Translations under genes and position numbers: made by a program
Part shown: piece after piece, positions 49,406-53,095 of the stretch
Position numbering within the stretch: the first letter of the stretch is position 1
How the letters are laid out: each line of letters starts with the position of its first letter
Notes under the pieces: generated by a model
Told to the model about the DNA's origin: nothing
Seen by the model: only the letters and a program-made list of their open reading frames with translations
Database searches by the model: none
Source: Clostridia bacterium
GTDB lineage: Bacteria > Bacillota > Clostridia > UBA1381
NCBI GenBank assembly: GCA_017935675.1
Contig: JAGBHE010000061.1
Coordinates: 62,001-126,000, forward strand
DNA length: 64,000 nucleotides
Direction of reading: 5' to 3'

Positions 49406-49455
49406 GCAACATAGGGGCGGCGCCTCATATTGAATTGGGATTTGGAGGGATAGTT

Positions 49456-51558
49456 TTGAGAAAAGGCAAAAAGGACTACGGACGGTTCAGCCATATAGTT
49501 TTGTTTTTTATATTGTTCTGTGCCGTTTTTCTCCTTATTATCCCTCTTTACAAAATATCCTACAGTGCGGCAAAGGACAGAATATACAGTCAGATATCCT
49601 CTGAAGCGCAGCGCGTTACAGAGGCGATAGATTCGGAAATGGTCATGTACCATACGATAAAAATGGAAATGATGTCCGACGCAAGATATATAAAAATGAA
49701 AAATCTGAAGCAGTTTGAAAGCTCTGCACAGTATATATATCTGAAGGATTTTGCCGATTTTTTTATCGGGCGCGCTGCTATGATGAATTTGAATGATAAC
49801 ACGTTTATCTTTTTCAGGAACAATGATACCGTTATATCCAAGGACAGGATTTTTGATAGCTTTTCCGCTCATGCGGACAGCTATCTGAAAATTGACGGCA
49901 TGGGATACGAGGATTTCAGAAACAGTATTTTCCGTGCCGGAACGGGGGTTTCGGTCAGATATGTAAATGATGTAAGGCTTGACGGTGAGCTTTCACCGTC
50001 AATTGTTGTTTTTCATCCTGTAAACTTTAATGTGGGTCAGCCGCCTGAGGCTGTTATGATTGGAATTTACAGTACTGACGCCCTGTTTGAACAGATAGGC
50101 GGCGGTTATCGTGAGGTTTTTGATTACGTTGCAATAAATGACGCTGTGGTATACTCCGGAGGCAGTAAGCCGGATTTATCGGAGGCCGTTGTAACCATGT
50201 GTTCAAACGCAGAGCTCAGGCTTACGCTTGTTATTTCGGAATCATATCTCGGCAGCTATATGCGGGGCTTTACACGGTTTGCCGTTATTTATGTTGCGGC
50301 TCTTTTCCTTATAGTTTTATGCTTGGAATTTTTTGTGAGCTGGTATACCGGCAGGTCGATGCGGAACATGGTGCGCCTTGTGGCAAGTGTTTCCGATGAA
50401 GAAATTCACAGTGAAGAGGATGTAATGGCGTCTCTCGGCAGGCTTAACGAAAACCAGAAAAATTATGAAAAAACCTTGCTTATGATGCTGTTTTTAAAGC
50501 CTCTTGACGAGGATGAATGCAAGCTGGTGCGCAGTAAGCAGCCGGATTTCCCCGAGCCCTTCCTTTTCGCCGTGTTTTACGGTGATAAGCTCAGTGTCGG
50601 TATATTGGAGCTGCTTATGGACAGATTCGGAATAGACAGAAGGTTTGCAATTTCGCCGGAAAAGGGCGAGGTTGTTGTGTTTTTTGAATATTCCGATACC
50701 GTTGATATACCACGGCTGCGCCGCTCTCTTGACGAGCTGTGCTTTGAGGCAAGAAAAAAGGGTGTTAATCTTACTGTACTGATAAGTATTCCCTGCAGCA
50801 GGCTTGGGGATTTTTATCAGATGTATACCCATATTCAAAGCTATTACCGTTTCATAGATTATGAAGGTGTGTTTGAGATGAAGGCTCCGTCTGAGGATAG
50901 CACGTCGGATGAAACGGCTGATTTGACGGGTATAAGGCTTCGGGAGGCCGTGATGTGCGGCGAAGCCTTTGAAGCGAAAAAGCTTGTTTATGAGCAATGG
51001 TACAGTCTGATGATCGGGAACTCCATAAGTGATGCCGATATAGAAAAAATGTTTTACAGTCAGATAGGCATTCTTGCCGAGGTGGCGATTAAGGTTCATT
51101 ATAACGGTGAGCTTGTCCGGTACAGCAGAAAAAAGAAAATTAACGAGCTTGCATTTTCTGTTGCGGATAACATTGATTCAATCTGTGAGCTGATAGACAG
51201 CAGCAGACAGCATAATTCGGAATATGACAAGGTTCTTCTGTATATCAAGGATAATTTCGCCAAGATAGACTTCGGTATACCCGATGTGGAGGCTCAGTTC
51301 GGAGTCACGGGTAAAACCATAAATAAAATTGTAAAAAACAGCACCGGCAGAACCTTTACGGAATATGTTGAGGAGCATAGGCTTATGCTTGCAAAACAGC
51401 TGCTGGAGGAGTCCGGTGAGGAAATAAGAGTTATTTCCGAACGCTGCGGATTTTTTAATTACGATACCTTTTACAGATTCTTCAAAAAACATACAGGTAC
51501 ATCTCCCGCTAAATGGAGAAGAACAAAAATGATAGAAAACAGCTTCGGCACGGAATAA
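49456..51558 (+). CDS. Membrane-bound AraC-family transcriptional regulator (locus 2, TTG start)
   Basis: A 700-residue one-piece sensor-regulator. Two membrane helices (about 13-35, IVLFFILFCAVFLLIIPLYK, and about 275-298, FAVIYVAALFLIVLCLEFFV) frame an extracellular sensor. The C-terminal AraC domain (about 590-690) has two HTHs: FGIPDVEAQFGVTGKTINKI and IRVISERCGFFNYDTFYRFF, ending THTGTSPAKWRR-like residues (KKHTGTSPAKWRR). Start: the frame extends to TTG 49435, but GGAGGG sits about seven bases before the TTG at 49456, which I prefer. It is the last gene of locus 2, while the locus 1 regulator is the first of its locus. A REP hairpin 3 bases after the stop, followed by a T-rich run, could act as terminator. 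Confidence 0.85.
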   Translation: MRKGKKDYGRFSHIVLFFILFCAVFLLIIPLYKISYSAAKDRIYSQISSEAQRVTEAIDSEMVMYHTIKMEMMSDARYIKMKNLKQFESSAQYIYLKDFADFFIGRAAMMNLNDNTFIFFRNNDTVISKDRIFDSFSAHADSYLKIDGMGYEDFRNSIFRAGTGVSVRYVNDVRLDGELSPSIVVFHPVNFNVGQPPEAVMIGIYSTDALFEQIGGGYREVFDYVAINDAVVYSGGSKPDLSEAVVTMCSNAELRLTLVISESYLGSYMRGFTRFAVIYVAALFLIVLCLEFFVSWYTGRSMRNMVRLVASVSDEEIHSEEDVMASLGRLNENQKNYEKTLLMMLFLKPLDEDECKLVRSKQPDFPEPFLFAVFYGDKLSVGILELLMDRFGIDRRFAISPEKGEVVVFFEYSDTVDIPRLRRSLDELCFEARKKGVNLTVLISIPCSRLGDFYQMYTHIQSYYRFIDYEGVFEMKAPSEDSTSDETADLTGIRLREAVMCGEAFEAKKLVYEQWYSLMIGNSISDADIEKMFYSQIGILAEVAIKVHYNGELVRYSRKKKINELAFSVADNIDSICELIDSSRQHNSEYDKVLLYIKDNFAKIDFGIPDVEAQFGVTGKTINKIVKNSTGRTFTEYVEEHRLMLAKQLLEESGEEIRVISERCGFFNYDTFYRFFKKHTGTSPAKWRRTKMIENSFGTE

Positions 51559-51560
51559 CA

Positions 51561-51589
51561 GAACACAAGGGGACGGTTCTCTTGTGTTC
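51561..51589 (-). repeat. REP-like hairpin at the end of locus 2
   Basis: GAACACAAG (51561-51569) pairs with CTTGTGTTC (51581-51589) around GGGACGGTTCT. It is the exact reverse complement of the 27-base hairpin after the RAYT gene, plus one base pair. TTTAATTTT follows, so it may double as a terminator for the regulator gene. Confidence 0.85.
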
Positions 51590-51615
51590 TTTAATTTTAA
51601 AAAAATATTTAACTA

Positions 51616-51644
51616 TTGACAAATATCAAAGGATGTGTTATAAT
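51616..51644 (+). promoter_or_regulatory. Strong promoter of the AAA ATPase gene
   Basis: -35 TTGACA (51616-51621), 17-base spacer, -10 TATAAT (51639-51644): both hexamers are perfect consensus. Such a promoter needs a repressor if the gene is not to be highly expressed; see the palindrome at 51639-51679. Confidence 0.85.
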
Positions 51645-51679
51645 TAACTTTAAAGTAAATTACTTTAAAGTTAATTATA
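51639..51679. promoter_or_regulatory. 41-base perfect palindrome (20+1+20) from the -10 into the leader
   Basis: TATAATTAACTTTAAAGTAA (51639-51658), centre A at 51659, and its exact complement at 51660-51679. It contains ACTTTAAAGT twice (51647-51656, 51662-51671), itself a 10-base palindrome. It covers the -10 hexamer and the predicted transcription start and stops five bases before the ribosome site GAGGTG. It may be a tandem operator or, in RNA, a long hairpin at the 5' end of the message. Confidence 0.75.
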
Positions 51680-51694
51680 TGATGAGGTGATATA

Positions 51695-53095
51695 ATGTTT
51701 ATCGGAAGAGAAAAAGAACTTGCGGCTCTTAATGAAATGTATAAGCAAGATAAATTTCAATTATTTGTGCTGTATGGACGCAGGCGTGTGGGAAAAACTA
51801 CGCTGCTTAATGAATTTTGCAAGGATAAGGACGCTATTTTCTATTCTGCCGAACAGAGCAATAACAAACTGAATCTTGAAAAATTCTCAAGCCTTGTTTT
51901 TCAGTTTTACGGGGAAAGCACACTTGAGCCATTTTCTTCCTGGGGAAACGCGTTATCATACATCAACGACAGACAAAATGATAAAAGACTTATACTTGTG
52001 TTTGATGAGTTTCCTTATTTGGCTAAAAAAAATAAAGCTCTTTTATTTGAGCTTCAGCATTTAATAGATCACAAGCTTCAGTATGGAAATCTTTTTATAA
52101 TTCTCTGCGGCAGCTACATGGGGTTTATGGAAAAAGAAGTACTAAGCTCAAAAAGTCCCCTGTTTGGACGCCGTACGGGACAACTTCACATGAAATCCTT
52201 TGATTACCATACAAGTCTGCGTTTTCTTGAAGGGTTTTCAAATGAGGAAAAAATAAATTTATACGGTGCTTTCGGCGGAACCGCATTATATTTGCAGCAG
52301 GTACAGAAAAACAAGAGCTTTGAAGATAATATCAAAAATACATTTTTGAGAACTACAGCCTATCTGTATGAAGAACCTTTGCTTCTGCTCCGTCAGGAAG
52401 TGCAGGAGCCGGGTGTATACAATGCAATTATAGAAGCAATCGCCGGCGGTGCCGCAAAGTCCAACGAAATTACAACAAAAATAAATGAAGAGCCGGCAAA
52501 ATGTCTGAAGTATATTAACACCCTTTGCGAGCTTGGGATTTTATATAAAGAAACGCCCTTCGGTGAAAAGCAGTCATCCAGAAAAACCATTTACGGTATT
52601 TCTGATTTTATGTTTCGTTTTTGGTATCGTTATATATTTACCAACAGAACCCTGATTGAAACCGGAGCTCAGGAGGTAATATGGAAAAAAAGAATTGAAA
52701 CAACCTATAGTGATTATATGGGGTTGATTTTTGAAAAGATATGCCGCGAATATTTAATGCTGCAAAACATACGCGGAAATCTTCCCATATTGTTTACAAG
52801 GATCGGCAGATGGTGGGGGTCCGATTCCTCCAATCATTCGCAGGTCGAAATTGATATTGTTGCAAATGAAGGCAATGATTATTTAATTTGTGAGTGTAAA
52901 TGGAGAAATGAGAAGCTTGATCTTTCAGTCTTAAAAGAGCTCAGGAAAAAAGCTGATTTGTTTACCAAAAAAAGAAGTAATACCTGGTATATTTTATTCT
53001 CAAAGTCAGGCTTCACAGATGCAGTAAAAAACGAGGCAAAAAACGATGATAACATTATTCTTGTTGAATTGAGCGATATAATAAACGTCGAATGA
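51695..53095 (+). CDS. AAA ATPase with DUF234 / PD-(D/E)XK nuclease-like C-terminus
   Basis: A 466-residue protein. The N-terminal ATPase (archaeal ATPase family) opens MFIGREKELAALNEMYKQ and has Walker A GRRRVGKTT (28-36), Walker B RLILVFDEFPYL (about 97-110) and a sensor-like ILCGSYMGFME. A winged-helix region follows (about 225-295). The C-terminal DUF234 part has a nuclease-like signature: QVEIDIVANEGND with Asp387, then LICECKW with Glu400 and Lys402, i.e. D-(12)-E-x-K. Family function is unknown; suggested roles include mobile-element or defence ATPases. It stands alone between a REP hairpin and the capsule cluster, under a consensus promoter with a long palindrome. GAGGTG lies before ATG 51695. 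The frame is intact. Confidence 0.8.
   Translation: MFIGREKELAALNEMYKQDKFQLFVLYGRRRVGKTTLLNEFCKDKDAIFYSAEQSNNKLNLEKFSSLVFQFYGESTLEPFSSWGNALSYINDRQNDKRLILVFDEFPYLAKKNKALLFELQHLIDHKLQYGNLFIILCGSYMGFMEKEVLSSKSPLFGRRTGQLHMKSFDYHTSLRFLEGFSNEEKINLYGAFGGTALYLQQVQKNKSFEDNIKNTFLRTTAYLYEEPLLLLRQEVQEPGVYNAIIEAIAGGAAKSNEITTKINEEPAKCLKYINTLCELGILYKETPFGEKQSSRKTIYGISDFMFRFWYRYIFTNRTLIETGAQEVIWKKRIETTYSDYMGLIFEKICREYLMLQNIRGNLPILFTRIGRWWGSDSSNHSQVEIDIVANEGNDYLICECKWRNEKLDLSVLKELRKKADLFTKKRSNTWYILFSKSGFTDAVKNEAKNDDNIILVELSDIINVE

Follow-up and report, generated by a model that had tools for sequence, protein, structure and literature searches.

Archaeal ATPases were reportedly treated by Koonin in 1997, and STAND NTPases are said to have been covered by Leipe in 2004. 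The closest described relatives of the gene studied here are the DUF234 ATPases of system PDC-S27 (Pfam PF01637 + PF03008), whose domains are arranged in the same order along almost the entire protein. They occur by the thousands in bacteria and archaea: 3503 archaeal and 4562 bacterial systems have been counted (PMC12988326, 2026), and 2865 in rumen genomes (PMC13356809, 2026). Unlike our locus, however, these systems come with no mention of a promoter repeat in the available parts of the two papers, and in the literature searched, as far as its text was available, the family is without tested function. No paper describing a 15-bp operator was found in that literature (PubMed Central, open licences), and the accessible portion of PMC1189080 does not mention DUF234. 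A similar plan is known from a published list of archaeal islands, in which arCOG03166 is described as a fusion of an AAA+ ATPase with HTH and RecB nuclease domains, “likely involved in defense” (PMC4158269). By this description it shares the three-part organization of our protein, but the available text mentions no operator (PMC4158269). The best structural matches are the archaeal Walker-type ATPases PAB2304 (2qen, Z 23.8) and SSO1545 (2fna, Z 22.3), which align over about 290 residues with the ATPase and the following domain (residues 1–313). Their chains, however, have only about 350 residues, and the alignments end near residue 313 and leave the C-terminal part uncovered. A domain predicted to be similar to SSO1545 also occurs in the mycobacterial signal-transduction ATPase IniR, a transcription regulator that, according to the available part of its description, differs from our protein in its size (818 residues) and in its other DNA-binding and sensor domains (PMC5760070).

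The ATPase Gene and Its Promoter

The window analyzed here comprises 64,000 nucleotides of a clostridial genome (contig JAGBHE010000061.1), and it contains one case of a 15-bp-repeat site that is found in the promoters of many bacterial and archaeal relatives of one ATPase gene. The product of this gene (51695–53095, plus strand; 466 amino acids) is a DUF234-type ATPase and belongs to PDC-S27, a single-gene defense candidate, as identified by Pfam, PADLOC, alignment, and a structure model. Pfam detected an ATPase_2 domain at residues 2–203 (98.6 bits, cut-off 33.2) and a DUF234 domain at residues 310–405 (92.7 bits, cut-off 22.5), and a match to Mrr_cat stays just below its Pfam cut-off (20.7 vs. 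21). The PADLOC models for PDC-S27, from a library used without cut-off, match residues 2–434 with an E-value of 4.3e-60; NCBIfam gave nothing above its cut-offs for the ATPase, and PHROGs only weak ATPase-like matches. In an alignment of 55 sequences the Walker-type residues G28, R29–R31, G33, K34, T35, D104, and E105 are invariant. The C terminus, which follows DUF234, contains residues of a nuclease-like kind; those that are invariant in the 55 sequences are D387, E400, and K402, which we read as a putative PD-(D/E)XK motif. The structure model built from the same 55 sequences (mean pLDDT 94.4) has helices at residues 239–250, 256–263, and 267–279, followed by strands at 283–286 and 299–302. 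As read from this predicted structure, residues of about 239–302 would form a winged helix with 267–279 as recognition helix.

By direct reading of the plus strand, the gene is preceded by a consensus promoter (51616–51644) consisting of a −35 element, TTGACA (51616–51621), a 17-base spacer and a −10 element, TATAAT (51639–51644). The ribosome-binding site GAGGTG (51684–51689) and the ATG at 51695 follow downstream. The six bases of the −10 element also open a perfect palindrome of 41 bases (20+1+20; 51639–51679), the predicted operator, which was delimited by inverted-repeat and folding computations and by alignment of homologs. Its arms (51639–51658 and 51660–51679) have 20 nt each, are 100% complementary and leave 1 nt in between. 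The full-consensus promoter overlaid by a palindrome, as described in the initial annotation, was thus confirmed by direct reading and inverted-repeat computation, and so were the two tandem palindromes 15 bases apart: pattern search located the dyad unit ACTTTAAAGT at 51647–51656 and again, starting 15 bp after the first start, at 51662–51671, the same period as in the homologs. These are the only two exact occurrences in the window. A lone unit is nevertheless unremarkable, because five matches were found in the window with one mismatch allowed when 3.0 were expected. The complete palindrome has a score of 20 compared to a shuffle mean of 7.1, and none of 200 shuffled 41-mers folded as well (z −7.8). 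Considering these shuffle statistics and the 15-bp period across homolog promoters, a chance palindrome was rejected.

The tandem dyad pattern, searched with up to two mismatches, occurs at one place in the whole assembly, and this is the ATPase promoter, where it is exact; the backwards control of the pattern gave one match on each strand of the assembly. The 15-base unit, with up to one mismatch, was found three times inside the palindrome and once elsewhere in the assembly (backwards control: 16 matches). Similarly, the close-type operator with up to two mismatches sits only before the ATPase in three other genomes, and its exact pattern had no match in viral contigs; the 13 viral-contig loci (L240–L252) and the phage records lay outside the analyzed set. 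A dispersed repeat was rejected on these grounds, so that the dispersal over unrelated places which the initial annotation had regarded as contrary evidence was encountered neither in this assembly nor in the three other genomes.

The gene that adjoins the locus upstream (49435–51558) encodes an AraC-type (HTH_18) protein, and the earlier statement that no regulator gene is adjacent was wrong. Between this gene and the promoter lies an imperfect inverted repeat around AGAACACAAGGGGACGGTTCTCTTGTGTTCT (51554–51596), which is terminator- or REP-like. The genome of the window (G000) contains further DUF234 paralogs. For the third of them (L084; G000:C8:71981–73366) one stop codon is reported inside the match, and the gene may therefore be broken. 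A similar hairpin, roughly AAAAATG..CTTGC..CATTTTT, is found upstream of the ATPase gene at L084, L086, L154, and L157, as if a small repeat had been inserted.

A 15-bp Period in the Promoters of Homologs

Of 80 places listed by the homolog search, 30 came with loci and 40 were added by region, while some of the other ten were already in the set. Loci were dropped where the match lacked the N terminus (L041, L052, L067, L095, L096), where they were copies of the window (L081, L082, L102–L104), or where they fell below the cut-off (L097, L098, L101); L105 was dropped as well. The resulting 164 loci were reduced to 98 at 80% protein identity, and 96 of these had enough upstream sequence (at least 110 bases). 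Near-duplicates were removed at 95% protein identity for the operator–protein comparisons and at 97% for the count of flanking repeats. Promoters of proteins less than 80% identical were then compared with themselves at lags 6–40. The mean self-match was 11.2 at lag 15, 5.2 at its harmonic, lag 30, and 3.4–4.6 elsewhere. A score of at least 8 at lag 15 was reached by 68 of the 96 promoters vs. one of 92 control stretches (taken from −600 to −490 upstream, often coding DNA), and lag 15 was the top lag in 64/96 promoters vs. 4/92 controls. Scores of at least 8 were found in all identity classes (16/25 at 60% or more, 26/39 at 40–60%, 26/32 below 40%), and 28 of the 96 promoters stayed below this value. 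In the distant homologs the repeat sequences differ while the layout is the same. For AAA_14-DUF4143 ATPases of this lineage, the promoters had no peak at lag 15 (mean 3.7), with one of 22 scoring at least 8; gene starts in this control were set by a simple rule, and six of its 28 loci went uncounted (five without usable ORF, one with short upstream sequence).

Where a lag-15 repeat exists (114 loci), it extends over 2.7 unit lengths on average. The operator overlaps the promoter at 78 of the 88 loci with a recognizable promoter (at least 9/12 matches), either over the −10 element and start (62) or further upstream only (16). By inspection, the repeat lies upstream of −10 in the subfamily of the L083 type, and L147, L123, and L137 look like direct repeats without overall palindromy. 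Among close homologs, an alignable operator, for which at least 22 positions of the 37-base operator core had to match the upstream sequence, is present in 55 of the 56 sequences of at least 60% identity, the window included; L046 has no match and L042 is marginal. A lack of conservation before close homologs, which was initially seen as an argument against the operator, is therefore not what we found. The second operator half is often degenerate, and the symmetry is lost in the close homologs L002, L003, L005, and L023. On average, the palindrome score upstream of the genes is 10.3 (91 loci), compared to 5.7 for 85 stretches lying 400–520 bases upstream and 5.3 for 91 intragenic stretches.

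The same layout was recovered from plasmid-labeled homologs. Of 155 such records, 22 from ten phyla were sampled (six among the ten top-ranked, and 16 out of 60 listed at intervals along the ranking; six of the 22 also belong to the 96-promoter set). Sixteen of them score at least 8, spanning six phyla and including haloarchaea, and 16 have lag 15 as best lag. Those reaching this score are eight of the ten haloarchaea, two Fusobacteriota, two Bacillota, two Alphaproteobacteria, Rhodothermus, and Protochlamydia. Several haloarchaea have near-identical operators with scores of just 8–9, and Fusobacterium (L174) has 11 at lag 15 and a higher value at lag 13. Examples are the repeats ACTCCAGAGTATAAT-ACTCTCGAGTATAAT in Rhodothermus and GAAATCACGATTTCC-GAAATCGTGATTTCC in Halomontanus. 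Below 8 remained Halobaculum marinum (7, best lag 15) as well as Haladaptatus and the most distant plasmid homologs (Bacteroides, Deinococcus, Malaciobacter, and Desulfosarcina), all of which are without the repeat. Two plasmid copies, L176 and L177, in Natrinema and Vescimonas, are located near partition genes (ParA family; ParM/StbA). Computation thus established the site and its location over the promoter, and it revealed a constant 15-bp period in both bacteria and haloarchaea. Since the transcription machineries of these organisms differ, the common 15-bp rule argues that the protein, and not the host, sets the spacing.

Inheritance of the Operator Sequence

Judged by sequence comparison, the operator is inherited with the protein and not with the host. 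Operator similarity rises with protein identity, from means of 8.7–9.5 below 45% to 21–30 at 60–95% (rho 0.41 over 98 loci). Conversely, in nine pairs of paralogs from the same genome the operators have similarities of 6–10 and are no more alike than those of strangers. Nine of 14 paralogs looked up have a lag-15 operator, and for eight of these nine the operator is similar to the one that the closest relative has in a different genome (17–41); the operator of L123 is not (6). In the genome of the window, for instance, the operator described above resembles those of relatives elsewhere, and the 47%-identical paralog L083 has a different operator common to its own relatives. The matrix test does not single out a reader domain, because the nuclease part correlates with operator similarity (partial r 0.194) about as well as the winged helix does (0.198); the value for the N-terminal AAA part is 0.155.

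One clade links an operator change to a residue. In L022, L027, L031, and L034 the operator is altered at the dyad-related positions C8A, G15T, C23A, and G30T in all four members, and of 102 columns that are invariant in the other 52 close sequences, the only one changed in all four is K272R, which lies in helix 267–279, the predicted recognition helix. Two of the 102 columns lie in this helix and 13 in residues 239–302, so that the probability of a chance hit in the recognition region is not negligible; clade-specific residues occupy ten columns in all. Furthermore, the four loci keep the same genomic neighbors and therefore represent one evolutionary event. Computation thus yielded co-inheritance with the protein, near-absence of the site elsewhere in the tested genomes, and a matched switch in one residue of the predicted recognition helix. 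Three well-preserved solo operators of the L110 type (L265, G408:C1:519; L266, G324:C100:14069; L267, G227:C33:23174) were found in three of ten genomes searched, and their fetched flanks contain no ATPase match. These sites are suggested to be either relics or extra regulated sites.

Proposed Autoregulation and Alternative Explanations

Most likely, the gene is under the control of its own product. The tandem dyads overlapping its promoter are conserved with the gene, and their sequence follows the protein rather than the host, as expected of a self-read operator. We thus consider it quite probable that the palindrome serves as operator for a single-gene module with autoregulation, and that the DUF234 ATPase binds it and represses itself. 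The initial guess of two dimer sites read by the winged helix of the ATPase is strongly supported by the comparison, in which operators are alignable in nearly all close homologs, follow the protein and are not dispersed, and it stands as a prediction. According to this model, the winged helix would bind the operator with one dimer per dyad, the dyads being exactly 15 bp apart and two in number at this promoter. Located over the −10 element and start (elsewhere only over the −35 region), the bound protein would block RNA polymerase and be kept at a low level; the predicted effect is repression rather than activation. Release might occur when the nucleotide or ligand state of the protein changes, or by titration; given the PDC-S27 assignment, the nucleotide state and phage infection suggest themselves as what relieves repression. 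The way in which neighboring protein dimers fit together would determine the 15-bp spacing, which corresponds to about 1.4 turns of DNA.

The site could also be read by a host transcription factor that has no relation to the ATPase, and the AraC-type gene immediately upstream in this genome and the three solo operators without ATPase gene would agree with such a role. However, all nine same-genome paralog pairs have mutually unrelated operators, eight of nine operators recur in a relative from a different genome, and no neighbor is conserved across homologs: no neighboring family is common to more than five of 92 loci (ORFs of at least 80 codons within 1.5 kb). A conserved regulator neighbor was rejected on this count, and the same scarcity of shared neighbors among ORFs of this size means that no two-gene type II toxin–antitoxin operon was recognized. 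A regulator encoded far away would escape the neighbor test; even so, we regard a host factor as quite improbable. Still less credible, and in our view highly improbable, is that an mRNA hairpin (or a cruciform) controls translation. As RNA, the 41-mer does fold at −17.2 kcal/mol (z −7.8), and a long hairpin before the ribosome-binding site had initially been proposed. The transcript start expected from the −10 position, near 51651, however, falls inside the left arm, so that the mRNA would contain a stem of only about 7 bp (z −0.8). Moreover, the degenerate second half in the four close homologs named above argues against any need for a hairpin, the repeat lies upstream of −10 in L083-type loci, and several loci seem to have direct repeats without overall palindromy. 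The RNA hairpin was rejected for the inferred start inside the palindrome and for this lost symmetry or upstream position in homologs.

Alternatively, the repeats might primarily serve the ATPase-nuclease as ends or recognition sites in moving or copying its own gene, with regulation secondary or absent. Between homologous loci in differing contexts, DNA similarity often begins only shortly ahead of the promoter and ceases near the stop codon; in other pairs the surroundings agree as well, and these loci seem to have been inherited without moving. Direct repeats of 32–142 bases flank 10 of 138 loci (L003, L047, L048, L110, L111, L065, L066, L068, L072, L080) vs. 0 of 251 control windows. At L047, a 73-base stretch over the start of the neighboring gene, as read purB, is duplicated on both sides of the ATPase. 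The solo operators and the invariant nuclease-like residues would also fit mobility. Against this, 128 of the 138 loci lack a flanking repeat, L110 and L111, which both have a duplication of the upstream gene's end, probably share one event, and not all ten loci are simple target duplications, because at L066 and L068 the operator is part of the flanking repeat and the DNA around L080 is rich in repeats. An inverted repeat common to both ends was not found in 84 loci (mean longest match 8.0 vs. 7.7 in mismatched pairs), and a shared terminal inverted repeat as in transposons was rejected for these loci. No clean empty site was found for L110/L111 either, as in L211, L212, and L214 the match does not continue past the upstream gene. 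Taken together, we consider it unlikely that mobility is the primary role of the repeats. A combination of both functions is doubtful as well, though slightly less so: DUF234 ATPase-nucleases might be one-gene mobile modules in bacteria and archaea, in which recognition of the private 15-bp repeats by the protein would shut the promoter and would also direct its own insertion, leaving host duplications of roughly 60–140 bp that sometimes preserve the neighboring gene, and sometimes solo operators as scars. Separately, L073 and L074 have a common upstream flank and diverge about 10 bases after the gene, and L071 and L074 have a common downstream flank and diverge 78 bases before it; these edges are either precise cassette edges or assembly joins.

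Comparison with Known Regulatory Systems

For the autoregulatory reading, the 15-bp repeat offers a first handle on DUF234/PDC-S27: for each subfamily it would predict which DNA is targeted, and it would provide a candidate specificity residue (K272) and a reporter of de-repression, including that by phage infection. We know of no operator common to IniR and the ATPase. Tandem dyads over a gene's own promoter that are read by its own product are familiar from toxin–antitoxin and restriction–modification controllers. In contrast to these systems, the presumed reader is here the effector-like ATPase itself, and the module consists of a single gene without conserved partner. In iteron-regulated replication initiators, direct repeats of constant period precede the gene of a self-repressing winged-helix initiator. 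The ATPase promoters resemble them in having constant-period repeats at the gene's own promoter, but differ in the period, which is 15 bp.
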